From a virus: a DNA stretch of 64,000 nucleotides. A model generated the notes under the pieces. It made no database searches, had not been told where the DNA came from, and saw only the letters and a program-made list of their open reading frames with translations. The stretch lies in the IMG/VR virus record IMGVR_UViG_3300035180_001820, positions 1 through 64,000 of that record. The stretch is one strand, 5' to 3'. How positions within the stretch are numbered: position 1 is the stretch's first letter; the number at the start of each line of letters is the position of its first letter. Made by a program: the position numbers and the translations under genes. This document shows positions 20,042-64,000 of this stretch, in pieces.

Positions 20042-20082
20042 TTGTGTTATTTAATAATTTATTTTCTAAAATATATATTAAA

Positions 20083-20171
20083 AAGCCGTAGGCTTAGTCG
20101 TTCTCCGACTTCGGTAGATGCTTCGCATCTGAGTCGCATGCGACTCTTAAGGTAGCGGATTTCTAATCCGC
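20083..20171. ncRNA. Five back-to-back hairpins, candidate small structured RNA
   Basis: Perfect stems: 20083-87/91-95 (5 bp), 20096-100/106-110 (5 bp), 20116-121/125-130 (6 bp), 20131-136/141-146 (6 bp), 20155-161/165-171 (7 bp). On the minus strand the third has the very stable GCGAAGC cap and the last (first in that direction, AAGCC/GGCTT) is followed by T residues like a terminator. The plus strand reads toward the 20324 gene. A further 8-bp inverted repeat lies at 20195-20202/20226-20233. Strand is uncertain. Confidence 0.5.
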
Positions 20172-20323
20172 GAATTTCTGATATAAGTTCCACAAAAACC
20201 TATAAATTTAATTATATTATACATTTAGGTTTTACCATTAAAATTAAAAATAAAGATATAAATTATAAAATTTCAGTCTATTTATTTTATATATTAATTT
20301 TTTTCTAAATAATAGGATAACCA

Positions 20324-40302: not shown

Positions 40303-40429
40303 ATGAAAATTAAGCCATTCAAAACTGTATCAAAACGAAACAGCCTAATACACAAATAATCAGTCTATGGTTATATATGGATTAGGCTATTCAACACTGA
40401 CTAGACTCTTCTAGCAAGTTAATTTTCAT
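40303..40429. repeat. Nested inverted repeat in a gene-free stretch
   Basis: Outer arms of 11 bp (40303-40313 with 40419-40429, perfect) enclose inner arms of 8 bp (40342-40349 with 40381-40388, perfect). Inside are two direct repeats (AAGCCATTCAAAACTG and TAGGCTATTCAACACTG), a CTGTATCAAAACGAAACAG hairpin, and CTAGACTCTTCTAG. Could be a large RNA hairpin, a replication element or a transcription end. Confidence 0.55.
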
Positions 40430-40949: not shown

Positions 40950-41232
40950 ATACAACATTTCTATCAATATCAAGTACTGTGACTATGACATTGGTTCCAT
41001 AAATAGTACTATCACTATAATCACCTACAGTAATATTTGTACTTTTCAATAATGCAGATAGTAATGTTAAATCAATTAACTCAATATCATGAACAGGATC
41101 TAAATCAATTATACAAAAAATACCAGATGCTTGTGTTTCTATAAAACTAACATTATGAATAATATCTTTACCAAAAATATCAAATATTTTTCCAACTAAT
41201 GTTGTTGTTTTATTACCATAAATCTCATTCAT
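40936..41232 (-). CDS. Small alpha/beta protein, family A
   Basis: 98 residues: short helix, strands around SFIETQASGIFCIIDL, a helix (LIDLTLLSALLKS), then strands ending in VIVTVLDIDRNVVY. Family A layout. Unknown. Confidence 0.6.
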   Translation of the reverse strand: MNEIYGNKTTTLVGKIFDIFGKDIIHNVSFIETQASGIFCIIDLDPVHDIELIDLTLLSALLKSTNITVGDYSDSTIYGTNVIVTVLDIDRNVVYDIN

Positions 41233-48402: not shown

Positions 48403-48693
48403 TTAAGTGATTTTAAGTAGTCTTAAAATATGTAAAATTAAGATAGCAAATTTATGGTTATTATCTGATTTATCAATAAGTAACATTCTATGTCTTAACA
48501 TTTTTAACATTGATAATTTTGTCATTACAAAATACTTACCATTACAAAATTTAAAAGATGTTGATGTTACACAACTATGTTCATTACTTTGTAATAATAA
48601 TTCCGTTACGACTGAATTTGTACATAATAATGGAAGTCCCTTAAATCCAGTATCATATACATATTCACAATTTGAACATAATAAGTTACACAT
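48403..48693 (-). CDS. Cys-rich hypothetical protein
   Basis: 96 residues. MCNLLCSNCEYVYD, later PLLCTNS, HSCVT and KFCNG: a possible zinc site; hydrophobic C-terminus (ILILHILRLL). TAATG overlap upstream. Ends near a stretch with the ATTTTAAG repeat. Unknown. Confidence 0.55.
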   Translation of the reverse strand: MCNLLCSNCEYVYDTGFKGLPLLCTNSVVTELLLQSNEHSCVTSTSFKFCNGKYFVMTKLSMLKMLRHRMLLIDKSDNNHKFAILILHILRLLKIT

Positions 48694-51129: not shown

Positions 51130-51270
51130 ATCATATTTTAAGTGTTTTTGGGTGGTCTTATTTTGATGTATTTTAAGTGGTGTTTTAGATGCATTTTAAT
51201 GCATAAATATTGAGGTTAGTTTGTATTTTATCGGTAGGTTAATTAAACTCCCACTAGACTCTTCCAATGG
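51130..51270. repeat. Intergenic repeat stretch (ATTTTAAG and CTAGACTCTTC units)
   Basis: No gene. Contains ATTTTAAGTG twice, TGTATTTTAAGTGG, GATGCATTTTAATGCAT and ACTCCCACTAGACTCTTCC within CCCA...TGGG. These units recur at 48395, 56955, 62545 and 62790. Confidence 0.5.
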
Positions 51271-51276
51271 GATATT

Positions 51277-56886: not shown

Positions 56887-56917
56887 CAAATATAACTACA
56901 ATTTCATAGACTGTCAA
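56887..56917 (-). promoter_or_regulatory. Promoter, TTGACA-N17-TATATTTG
   Basis: Minus strand: TTGACA at 56917-56912, TATATTTG at 56894-56887, spacer 17. Leader ATTAATTACGGA also follows the 62503 promoter. Confidence 0.82.
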
Positions 56918-56982: not shown

Positions 56983-57045
56983 GACTCTTTAGAAGGGTCT
57001 AGTGGGAGTTAAAATGATAGGCTGATAGTTTATATAGCCTTAAAA
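56983..57045. repeat. Intergenic repeat module
   Basis: GACTCTTTAGAAGGGTC, CTAGTGGGAGT and GGCTGATAGTTTATATAGCC. Relates to the 45195-45262 module. Confidence 0.5.
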
Positions 57046-57410: not shown

Positions 57411-58661
57411 TTATCTTGGTTTTTGAATCATCTGTTTAACAAGTACTCTTTCCGATGCTTGACCACCGTCATAAGAATAAAGACCTTCAATAACCAGCGC
57501 ACATGCTTCTTCATATGTAAAACCATCAGTAAGATATTTACCAAGTTCAATAAGCTTTCTTGTTGAGACGGCTTGACTTAAAATTGAATTACCTGACATA
57601 ACCTGAAGTCTAATGTCAATGATAAGAGTAACCACTTTTTCAATTAGTGGTTTTGTTATAGCAGGAAACATTTCTTGCATTAAATCAATAAGATCTTCTT
57701 TGGAAATATTATCAACTTCAATTTTAGTAAATCTATCAATAACCGCAGTGTCCATTATTGATGTACCTGTATACTCCATACCAATGTTAGCCGTTGCGAT
57801 AAAACATACTCCTTGAGCTAATTTAACTGTGTGATTTTCATGTTCACTTGAGTTGATTGAAATTTCCCGAATATTTTCATCGAGCAATGGCATCAATAAG
57901 TTTGCGGCATCTCGTGAAGCTCTGGAAAATTCATCTAACAAAATAATGCTATTGGGTATTTGAATAGCTCTGATAAAATCAGATTCTAAGAAATATGTTC
58001 CACCGTCAGCCGCATGTGTCTTACCAAGAATTGTAGTGTTTGCATCTCGGCTATTACCAAGATCCAATTTGAAGAATGGCCTATCTAATACCTCTTTCAA
58101 AACATAAGCTAACATTGTCTTACCTTCACCCTTAGGACCGGTGATCATAATATTCTCACCACGGATTACCGCGCGGACCGCAGCCTTCCACTTAAGTTCT
58201 GAAATTTTATAATAACTTGGTTTAATTGTATAAGACTGATGGATGAATTGAACTTTCTCAAATTCATCAGTAAAAACAGTGTCGGCCTTATTGATACCTT
58301 CAAGAAGTTGGAGAATAGTTTTTGTGGCTTGATGCCGCATACCGATAGTTGCCATTCTTCGTGTTGAAGCAACCTTTGGTGTAGTTGCAGTAAGCTCTTT
58401 TACTACAGGAGTAAATCCACTTCGAATGCTCTTCTTAAGTCTAGCTGATTCAGGATCTCCTGCTTTATAAATAAGTTCGAACTCGAACCCTTTATTATAA
58501 CCGTATGAGATCTGAGACTTGTGTAAAAAATCGGTTACATCAAATTCAGTACCATCTGCACTTGTGATGACTGCTTGTTTTGAAGTTTTGCATATGATAA
58601 TTGAATTACCTGCTGAGTTCGCAGCCTCAATTAGGCGCAATTTATTTGTGATAGTAGCCAA
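57411..58661 (-). CDS. MoxR/CobS-type AAA+ ATPase
   Basis: 416 residues. Walker A GPKGEGKT (175-182), Walker B IILLDEFSR (239-247), sensor ATANIG (290-295) and arginine finger near DRF (309-311). The N-terminal 110 residues are an extra domain, beta-rich at first. These ATPases, paired with VWA proteins, insert metals or remodel complexes. TTG start at 58661 with AAGGA 8-12 bases upstream. Promoter at 58691. Confidence 0.88.
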   Translation of the reverse strand: MATITNKLRLIEAANSAGNSIIICKTSKQAVITSADGTEFDVTDFLHKSQISYGYNKGFEFELIYKAGDPESARLKKSIRSGFTPVVKELTATTPKVASTRRMATIGMRHQATKTILQLLEGINKADTVFTDEFEKVQFIHQSYTIKPSYYKISELKWKAAVRAVIRGENIMITGPKGEGKTMLAYVLKEVLDRPFFKLDLGNSRDANTTILGKTHAADGGTYFLESDFIRAIQIPNSIILLDEFSRASRDAANLLMPLLDENIREISINSSEHENHTVKLAQGVCFIATANIGMEYTGTSIMDTAVIDRFTKIEVDNISKEDLIDLMQEMFPAITKPLIEKVVTLIIDIRLQVMSGNSILSQAVSTRKLIELGKYLTDGFTYEEACALVIEGLYSYDGGQASERVLVKQMIQKPR

Positions 58662-58690
58662 TGAATTATTTCCTTATTAAATTTACAATA

Positions 58691-58721
58691 GTAATATAAC
58701 TATAAAATCTTAAACTGTCAA
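58691..58721 (-). promoter_or_regulatory. Promoter, TTGACA-N17-TATATTAC
   Basis: Minus strand: TTGACA at 58721-58716, TATATTAC at 58698-58691, spacer 17; the -10 end is off consensus. Confidence 0.7.
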
Positions 58722-58735
58722 TAGAGTTTGAAAAA

Positions 58736-58996
58736 TTATTTTGAAAGAAGAGCTTTAACTTTTTTGTTTCTTGCTCTGGTGCGGGCACCTTTACAACGTC
58801 CCCATTTTTCACCTTCCATAAATTTCCAGTTTGCATACATAAAAAGAAGATCTTTAACTTCGCTTACTGTCAGATTATGTTCTTTTTCAAACTCCGTAAG
58901 TTTATCATGATAACTACGTACGCAGTGTACATCTTCTGATTTGTGTAAAAGTTCTGCTAAATGTAATACCAATTTCCGTCTATCTAAGTTATTCAA
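58736..58996 (-). CDS. Small basic helical protein, family B
   Basis: 86 residues, TTG start at 58996 after GGA. KEHNLTVSEVKDLLFMYANWKFMEG is the family B core; the tail is basic (RARNKKVKALL). Unknown. Confidence 0.62.
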   Translation of the reverse strand: MNNLDRRKLVLHLAELLHKSEDVHCVRSYHDKLTEFEKEHNLTVSEVKDLLFMYANWKFMEGEKWGRCKGARTRARNKKVKALLSK

Positions 58997-59025
58997 TTTT
59001 CTGTTCCATTAAAAATTTTGATATA

Positions 59026-62220: not shown

Positions 62221-62251
62221 CAAATATAACTATAATTTCTTAGACTGTCAA
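62221..62251 (-). promoter_or_regulatory. Promoter, TTGACA-N17-TATATTTG
   Basis: Minus strand: TTGACA at 62251-62246, TATATTTG at 62228-62221, spacer 17. Confidence 0.82.
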
Positions 62252-62263
62252 TGGAGTTTGAGA

Positions 62264-62470
62264 TTAATCTTTCTCAATTTTACCACATAAAATACACCGA
62301 TATGTATCTTTTTTACAACCATTATCTGTCCAAATATGACTGCATATTTTAATAGGTTTATTCGTCATATCCCAAACACCATTAAAACTAATAGCAAATC
62401 TGCCAATGGTACCTTTTACCGAACTTTTATCCGAAGTAATCATTTCTAGTTGTTTTGCCGTTAATTTCAT
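62264..62470 (-). CDS. Small zinc-ribbon protein
   Basis: 68 residues. KICSHIW, GCKKDTYRCILCGK give a CxxC-type site with His. Alone between two promoters. Unknown. Confidence 0.62.
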   Translation of the reverse strand: MKLTAKQLEMITSDKSSVKGTIGRFAISFNGVWDMTNKPIKICSHIWTDNGCKKDTYRCILCGKIEKD

Positions 62471-62502
62471 TTTTGTTATCCGTAATTAATAAATTTGATA
62501 TA

Positions 62503-62533
62503 CAAATATATCTATAAAAACATGGATTGTCAA
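62503..62533 (-). promoter_or_regulatory. Promoter, TTGACA-N17-TATATTTG
   Basis: Minus strand: TTGACA at 62533-62528, TATATTTG at 62510-62503, spacer 17. The most upstream promoter in the window. Confidence 0.82.
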
Positions 62534-62951
62534 TGGAGTTTAGAAATTAATTTCTACTATCTTATTTTAATGTATTTTAAGACTTCAAAGTTACTAGCAT
62601 AAAACGATGTATTTTAAGCTATTACTTATATCGTCTTTAAATGATGTTAAATAGCTTCCGAATAGATAACCACAGAACACACATAATAACACTTACTAGA
62701 CCCTTCTAACAAGACGATTACCGAGGCCTATAAATGCTTATAAATAATTAAACCATATAAACATTAAGTATACTAGTTTGACTCCCACTAGACTCATCTA
62801 ACAAGCCGCCACATACTTGCTAGTGGAAAAAATTACAGTCCGGAGTATTTTACTAGTTTGTCAATAATTGAATATATGACCATATAGAATTATCATAGTT
62901 TATTTTTTATACTCCCAATTTGATTTAAAGTCATATTGATTTATTTTTATA
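62534..62951. repeat. Gene-free stretch with intergenic repeat units
   Basis: No gene in either strand. Units: ATGTATTTTAAG (62565 and 62608), ACTTACTAGACCCTTCTAACAAG (62689), GACTCCCACTAGACTCATCTAACAAG (62780), and TATACTAGTTT/TTACTAGTTTG (62768, 62850). These recur in other intergenic stretches listed here. Confidence 0.5.
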
Positions 62952-63075
62952 CTTAAAGATGCTTCTATAATGTCCGGTAGAAATGCGGACTAATCCAATC
63001 TAAGTTATTTTATTTTTTTATATTTCTTAAAGATGCTTCTATAGAAGAAAAATAGTGTCCGGTAGAAATGCGGAC
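62952..63075. repeat. Direct repeat carrying a GTCCG/CGGAC hairpin
   Basis: CTTAAAGATGCTTCTATA occurs at 62952-62969 and 63026-63043. Each is followed by GTCCG-GTAGAAATG-CGGAC-TAA (62972-62990, 63057-63075), stem and 9-base loop identical. On the minus strand the second is followed by ACTATTTTTCTTC, terminator-like. Confidence 0.65.
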
Positions 63076-64000
63076 TAAAGTAAGCCATTCTCACATTACA
63101 CACTTCCTAACCCCAAGTAACTAGGCATAACCTTAGCATCTATTAATGTGTACACTTATTTCTTATGGGACTGAGATTATGGTAGGTAGTAACTACATAC
63201 TACAAAGGACCACCAACAAATGTCAGCAGTCCTTTGAGCTAGCTAGCTATACAGCAAAAGCATCTAATACTAAATGATCAGTAAAGTATGTCGATGCTTC
63301 CACTTTTGACGCGATTTTGAATAGACCATCGCTTACGGTCTCCTTTCCAACAAGTATGGATTGCTCCTCCTACTATCAGTATACTTGATAGTTAGTAGAG
63401 CTTCTTAACGTATAGCATCCTACGACATCCTATATTTAAAGCCTAGTATATGCAATTAAGGCACGCAGACAGTATACTTATTCAAGGTATACTAAATCGG
63501 CTACTGTTTAACGGCGGCAGTTTGCCGAGTACTTTTCTGAGTTAACTGTACATTAGTATTAATCTAATCTGTCACGTTATAGATATCGTCAGCACAATAT
63601 ACCATATGCAGGTGGTTGTTACTCAATTTAGTAACCAGCAGCTACTGTAACGTCGATAGCGGCACGTGATACTCACTTTAGTATCCATCGGTATTTTGTA
63701 ATGACAAAATTGACTAAAAACATCCTATACCTGTAGTCGATAGAAGAACTATAACTATATATCAGTTATCAATATTATATTTACATATACTTAAATATAC
63801 AAACAATCCTACATAAGATTATGGATGTAGTGCCATAGCCATGATTATTGAGTATAGACGACTCAACATAAGTTTTCGCGCTATGCCACGTACAAAGTGT
63901 TTATAGACTCTAAGTAAAAGTCTCCTAACCAGTTAATTATAATCCGTCCATGATCTGCACATGGCCTTCTGAGTTTCTGCTCAGCGGTTCTACTCCTAAA
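63076..64000. ncRNA. Candidate large ornate structured RNA, partial at right edge
   Basis: No convincing gene in any frame; base composition is visibly richer in GC than the coding DNA. Perfect stems: 63204-210/229-235, 63258-264/293-299 with an inner 63267-271/285-289, 63373-378/386-391, 63471-477/487-493, 63552-556/564-568, 63618-623/630-635, 63668-673/680-685, 63693-699/704-710, 63848-853/861-866, 63905-909/919-923, 63948-952/960-964 and 63969-973/980-984. Several loops have 7 bases; two hairpins are near copies. Size and density recall GOLLD and ROOL RNAs of phages. Strand not fixed; a terminator-like end at 63057 favours minus. Confidence 0.6.

Follow-up and report, generated by a model that had tools for sequence, protein, structure and literature searches.

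The closest described systems to the locus reported here are the large, folded RNAs GOLLD and ROOL, which are encoded by phages, often near tRNA islands, and of which GOLLD sometimes carries a tRNA in its linker (PMC12286853). A further precedent comes from the phage ICP1: its most abundant transcript is a noncoding RNA of ~800 nt from a 1-kb gap that has no ORFs (PMC7567579). T4-like phages have structured elements of a different kind, the promoter early stem-loops (PeSLs), which lie beside early promoters and are dispersed between genes.

Here we describe a long gene-free stretch near the end of a linear phage record of 67,267 bases. The window, by which we mean the whole stretch of 64,000 nucleotides that was analysed, corresponds to positions 1-64000 of this record; the last 3.3 kb were also read, and record 60000-67267 is the locus L003 (L003 position + 59999 = record position). 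The likeness to GOLLD and ROOL is one of analogy only: this locus combines a long gap with a tRNA-like element and predicted paired ends, but the candidate RNA is up to 2.5 kb in size, compared with ~0.8 kb for GOLLD, and the locus has no Rfam match on either strand, no homologues that we could find and no intact tRNA. It shares with ICP1, a lytic phage without tRNAs, the ORF-less gap (PMC7567579); however, the ICP1 RNA was shown by RNA-seq, and the gap in the present phage has nearly three times the length of that in ICP1. We propose that the minus strand may encode a large structured noncoding RNA, at most ~2.5 kb long, beside a regulatory cassette, and give this reading a probability of roughly 0.38: it is plausible but unproven.

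A long gene-free stretch in a compact phage record

ORF lists and a gap scan place the gene-free stretch at record 62471-65259 (2789 nt, Table 1). It is the longest gap judged in this compact record, the next longest being 830 nt; the gap scan also returned 1-2818, but a 940-aa frame that runs off the window start occupies this interval. The first-pass annotation had described about 1 kb without a gene, cut by the right edge of the window: the absence of genes is real and the stretch does continue past position 64000, but it starts further left and is much longer. The sole ORF of at least 40 aa inside 62952-64000 is one 43-aa frame. Reading TAG or TGA as sense yielded no longer frame in the gene-free stretch, and a recoded protein gene (TAG=Q, TGA=W) was rejected because stop-to-stop lengths equal those of shuffled DNA and frames are no longer than expected by chance. 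The short frames have no match in Pfam.

Table 1. Positions of the features discussed (window coordinates, unless marked as record coordinates)
Feature	Position	Strand	Basis
Gene-free region	62471-64000 in window, on to record 65259	minus	ORF lists, gap scan
Early promoter TTGACA ... TATATTTG, for the adjoining gene at 62264-62470; bounds the candidate RNA on the left	62503-62533	minus	promoter pattern
Dispersed 21-bp element TTAAAATACATCAAAATAAGA	62560-62580	minus	4 window copies, both orientations; 0.05 expected by chance
Left arm of perfect 14-bp inverted repeat, CTAGCATAAAACGA	62594-62607	minus	repeat search
Dispersed 9-bp hairpin, tetraloop	62683-62715	minus	42.6 bits, covariance model
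Dispersed 9-bp hairpin, second tandem copy	62775-62807	minus	41.1 bits
Promoter-like unit: dyad GTCCG-N9-CGGAC upstream of ATCTTTAAGTATAAAAATAAA	62928-62993	minus	repeats D1/D2
Promoter-like unit, second tandem copy	63002-63078	minus	repeats, core match in related phages
Strongly folded domain with five hairpins, of which one has 15 uninterrupted pairs	63179-63419	minus	MFE, z versus shuffles
First similar hairpin GTTACT/AGTAAC, 6-nt loop	63618-63635		stem count, fold
Second similar hairpin GATACT/AGTATC, 6-nt loop	63668-63685		stem count, fold
Hairpin ATTTTGT-CATT-ACAAAAT	63691-63711		21 nt identical to reverse complement at 48515-48535
tRNA-like element	record 64305-64417	minus	Rfam tRNA model, 19.6 bits
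Right arm of inverted repeat, TCGTTTTATGCTAG, complementary to CTAGCATAAAACGA	record 65105-65118, outside window		repeat search

Genes near the gene-free stretch are on the minus strand. The phage is a myovirus that has several genes resembling those of T4-like phages (baseplate wedge protein, ATP-dependent DNA ligase, RNA ligase, thymidylate synthase and a radical-SAM protein), and its host is probably a member of the Bacteroidetes. We infer the host from the early promoters: the minus strand of the record has about 20 of the pattern TTGACA-N17/18-TAnnTTTG/A, in which TAnnTTTG corresponds to the -7 box of flavobacterial sigma-A (PMC9723704). These promoters are near-identical to each other (AACTCTATTGACA...TATATTTGTATATCAA, minus strand, ~20 record sites, for example 62221-62251 and 56887-56917).

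Promoters and dispersed elements at the left end

The left 0.5 kb of the region is rich in repeated elements: 62540-62830 holds one copy of the 21-bp element and two of the dispersed hairpin. Further copies of the 21-bp element are at 51156, 56962 and 59083. The dispersed hairpin, of 33 nt, has five copies in the record, all intergenic and in both orientations: the two tandem copies of Table 1 and single copies at 40388-40420, 51241-51273 and 56983-57015, with the single-copy sites adjoining early promoters. The 9-bp stem is common to all five copies, 95.6% of the pair cells are standard and two pairs show a double change (C-G versus U-A); five sequences do not suffice to make the shuffle control of the pairing decisive (82 of 500), but sliding the partners destroys the pairing. 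The hairpin has no copy in 22 loci of related phages. To the right of the two tandem hairpin copies are the two tandem promoter-like units, each consisting, on the minus strand, of the dyad followed by ATCTTTAAG(TATAA). Their core, ATCTTTAAGTATAA, matches a repeated upstream element of genes in the distantly related phages L088, L084 and L036, where it sits just upstream of start codons in the fashion of a promoter.

Since dispersed elements, early promoters and tandem promoter-like units gather in 62480-63080, we read this part as what looks like a PeSL-like regulatory cassette for the gene at 62264-62470. The five-copy hairpin family and the 21-bp element lie next to early promoters in a way that recalls PeSLs. 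The likeness is a resemblance only and leaves the unique 2-kb part of the region unexplained.

The same elements bear on the possibility that the whole gap is a composite regulatory and recombination region, in which PeSL-like cassettes, tandem promoters and long leaders are collected and give rise to several short transcripts or serve as DNA sites. The hairpins and the 21-bp element beside early promoters at the left end, the tandem units with their dyad and the 21-nt hairpin shared with 48515-48535 are what such a region would contain, and in T4-like phages the shuffling of genes is reportedly mediated by PeSLs (PMC4503421). Moreover, because two minus-directed promoter-like units lie inside the region (62928-63078), several transcripts fit better than one. 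However, these elements account for ~62480-63080 only: apart from that 21-nt hairpin, no stretch of more than 15 nt in the part from 63081 to 65118 recurs elsewhere in the record, and other gaps of this phage with such elements measure ~190-300 nt. A composite region is thus possible, but we consider it rather doubtful as an explanation of the entire gap.

Folding of the gene-free region

Short perfect stems are in excess in 62952-64000: 18 have at least 5 bp (8.1 ± 2.4 in dinucleotide shuffles) and nine have at least 6 bp (2.3 ± 1.5). Sixty other 1050-nt pieces of the phage have on average 5.0 ± 2.2 stems of at least 6 bp, and three of them reach nine; the excess is therefore real, yet unexceptional for this phage genome. 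The many perfect short stems that had first drawn attention to the region thus exceed those of shuffled sequence, but hardly set it apart from other pieces of the phage. The 7-base loops also remarked on are not the prevailing type, as six-base loops are more frequent among the 6-bp stems. Two hairpins proposed to be duplicates (the first and second similar hairpin in Table 1) both exist and share ACTCAxTTTAGTA, but the argument for duplication is weak: 9% of shuffles contain two 13-mers that are no more than 60 nt apart and equally alike.

Over its full length, the region folds with a z of about -4.5 versus shuffles (30 shuffles); the value is equal on both strands, so that the full-length fold does not fix the strand. 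Thirds of the region have z values of -0.7 to -2.6, which is inside the span of +0.8 to -5.6 obtained for 17 further 845-nt segments of this phage, and 240-nt windows (746 windows) score a little lower than elsewhere: the mean z is -1.52 versus -0.86 on the minus strand (p = 0.04) and -1.23 versus -0.69 on the plus strand (p = 0.09). Thus, taken in its entirety, the region differs only mildly from the rest of the phage in local folding. One part stands out, the strongly folded domain (63179-63419), which has an MFE of -80.4 kcal/mol on the minus strand with a z of -4.77; none of 200 shuffles was as stable, and z on the plus strand is -2.71. The domain was chosen from a scan, and among the 746 sampled windows its z ranks as the 10th lowest. 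The G-U pairs of its 15-pair hairpin (CAAAGGACTGCTGAC/GTTGGTGGTCCTTTG) fail on the plus strand and the predicted structure therefore favours a minus-strand RNA for this domain.

The strongest 240-nt fold windows of the record start at 41221 (minus), 45541 (plus), 22321 (minus) and 65161 (minus, record position), with z values of -6.9 to -7.4 (15 shuffles each), and these four outscore every window inside the gene-free region. At 20080-20180 on the minus strand, five to six short hairpins with perfect stems stand in compact series (GCGGAT/ATCCGC, GAGTCG/CGACTC, AGATGC/GCATCT and others; z -3.3); the last hairpin is followed by a T-run and an early promoter lies just downstream of the series.

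Several perfect palindromes in the gene-free region have TACT/AGTA half-sites in common, as might be expected of an element that works at the DNA level, a replication origin or a packaging region made of palindromes, and a noncoding region of ~3 kb in the Vibrio PLE satellites does hold a replication origin (PMC7567579). Against this, the GC skew does not change sign at the region, there is no iteron-like array, and the G-U pairs of the folded domain and the dispersed hairpins are supported by a folded single strand only. We consider a DNA-level element very improbable.

Base composition, predicted paired ends and a tRNA-like element

The GC content of 63001-64000 is 0.361, in agreement with the higher GC noted in the first-pass annotation: ~0.28 is typical of the window and only 58001-59000 is comparable (0.359). 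The tetranucleotide CTAG occurs 15 times in the 2.5 kb of the region versus 57 times in 62.6 kb elsewhere (~1 per kb), with an observed-to-expected ratio of 1.35 versus 0.63 for the rest. TA, AG and CT steps are enriched relative to the rest of the phage, and CA/TG is lower. As CTAG and dinucleotide usage are unlike the rest, the region is not simply the phage's own sequence minus genes, but has a different constraint or a different origin. The minus strand of the region has a G excess, the same as in genes.

Large folded RNAs and rRNA precursors commonly have ends that pair. In this region, the two arms of a perfect 14-bp inverted repeat lie close to the two ends (Table 1), and they pair with a probability of 0.96-0.98 in full-length folds. 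A 14-mer pair separated by a distance above 2 kb is found in 1.6% of shuffles; restricted to the outer 160-nt ends the figure is 0.15%, which is somewhat generous because the 'ends' were defined post hoc.

The tRNA-like element in the record beyond the window scores below the gathering cut-off of 29 bits (E = 1 over all 4227 families). Its acceptor stem has 7 bp and its T-arm (GTGGG-TTCAATT-CCCAC) is perfect; 1% of shuffles hold a T-arm in which every consensus position is matched. Folded alone, it forms a cloverleaf of ordinary stability (z -1.2). A working tRNA was rejected, as the element has a 23-nt loop at the anticodon position instead of a 7-nt anticodon loop and its score is too low: it is a tRNA mimic, a remnant or a chance likeness. 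ARAGORN identified no intact tRNA in the window or in L003. A decayed tRNA array was also rejected, since ARAGORN counts in the region at relaxed thresholds equal those of shuffles.

The unusual composition and the degenerate tRNA-like element could both be explained if the stretch were DNA that has decayed or was acquired recently: a defunct cluster of genes that has no function and perhaps includes the remnant of a tRNA. In two phages, large tRNA arrays lie close to a related AAA gene, and the promoter-like units are similar to those seen in other phages and not to the type usual in this one. Yet pseudo-tRNA counts are not above those of shuffles, Pfam detects no protein remnant, and neither the end repeat nor the folded domain is expected in decaying sequence; this explanation appears unlikely to us.

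Searches for known families and homologues

Rfam models were searched with cmscan in the window at the gathering cut-off and in record 60000-67267 on both strands down to E = 10. GOLLD, ROOL, OLE and HEARO had no match in either search, and neither had rRNA or group I or group II introns. Membership of GOLLD or ROOL, the known phage RNAs that the first-pass annotation named, is therefore excluded at the Rfam level; the matches that would have spoken against a noncoding RNA altogether (rRNA, intron or coding) are likewise absent from the Rfam and Pfam results. A CRISPR was rejected, as there are just two repeat copies.

No homologue of the region was identified by nucleotide search of 50,697 phage records or by an exact 23-nt pattern in IMG/VR. 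When the gene neighbours were used as queries, singly and as an alignment, in IMG/VR and GTDB, only distant relatives were found (~44% in the AAA protein), none with the region. Eight whole records searched directly with the region gave merely short AT-rich or promoter-like matches, and the one contig matched by a promoter-pattern scan is not a relative by its AAA or RNA-ligase protein. Failure to find a homologue is not proof that the region is unique.

Large gaps in the distant relatives L027, L061, L064, L078 and L082 were rejected as counterparts, as they contain tRNA arrays or other sequence. The tRNA arrays near the AAA-ATPase gene of two related phages have 27 genes (L061 407-6651) and 16 genes (L082 12320-13975). 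Phage tmRNA genes, one of them of the permuted type, are located near the same AAA-ATPase gene at L026 17109-17267, L031 16044-16433 and L044 12100-12480. The gene-free, GC-rich and CTAG-rich stretch at L078 17365-18340, from a distantly related phage, looks like a complex folded RNA with a hairpin and a T-run at its end; it has no Rfam match.

Discussion

Several observations argue for a giant RNA: the length of the gap, the lack of recoded frames and Pfam matches, the end repeat, the full-length fold, the folded domain at 63179-63419, the composition, the tRNA-like element, the G excess of the minus strand and the ICP1 precedent. In addition, we found no canonical terminator inside the region on the minus strand. 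On the other side, local folding stays inside the phage's own range, the full-length z is the same on both strands, an early-type promoter (TTGACA/TAnnTTTG) is missing just upstream of the right end, the two promoter-like units inside the region suit several transcripts better than a single one, neither an Rfam family nor a homologue was found, and the tRNA-like element is below the gathering cut-off with a cloverleaf of ordinary stability. Of the large ornate noncoding RNA suggested in the first-pass annotation, the long gap stands and is joined by the end repeat, one folded domain and the tRNA-like element; the argument from short stems and the named families do not hold, and the left 0.5 kb is better described as cassette-like.

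If there is a large RNA, transcription would start at the early promoters at record 65.8-65.95 kb, cross the gene at 65260-65844 and continue into the gap. The ends at 65105-65118 and 62594-62607 would pair and close a giant domain, and the transcript could be trimmed at this end helix, as host RNase III does with rRNA precursors. The mature RNA would act in its folded form, perhaps as scaffold, cage or decoy, as is supposed for large noncoding RNAs of other phages, and may work in a GOLLD/ROOL-like way, while the left 0.5 kb would be a separate regulatory cassette that serves the next gene. Transcription, processing, the single-molecule nature and any function of the candidate RNA are what we infer from the arrangement of these features. 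The stronger claim, that one phage RNA of ~2.5 kb, and thus threefold larger than GOLLD, outside the Rfam families and with paired ends and a tRNA-like domain, represents a new class and possibly the largest structured phage noncoding RNA known, appears unlikely at present.

Phages seldom keep kilobases without genes. If the stretch encodes one RNA, this molecule would found a new class among giant RNAs of phages and enlarge the set in which the role of GOLLD- and ROOL-like RNAs can be tested; if it is a pile-up of cassettes, it would show that regulatory stem-loops accumulate in a phage of a probable Bacteroidetes host.
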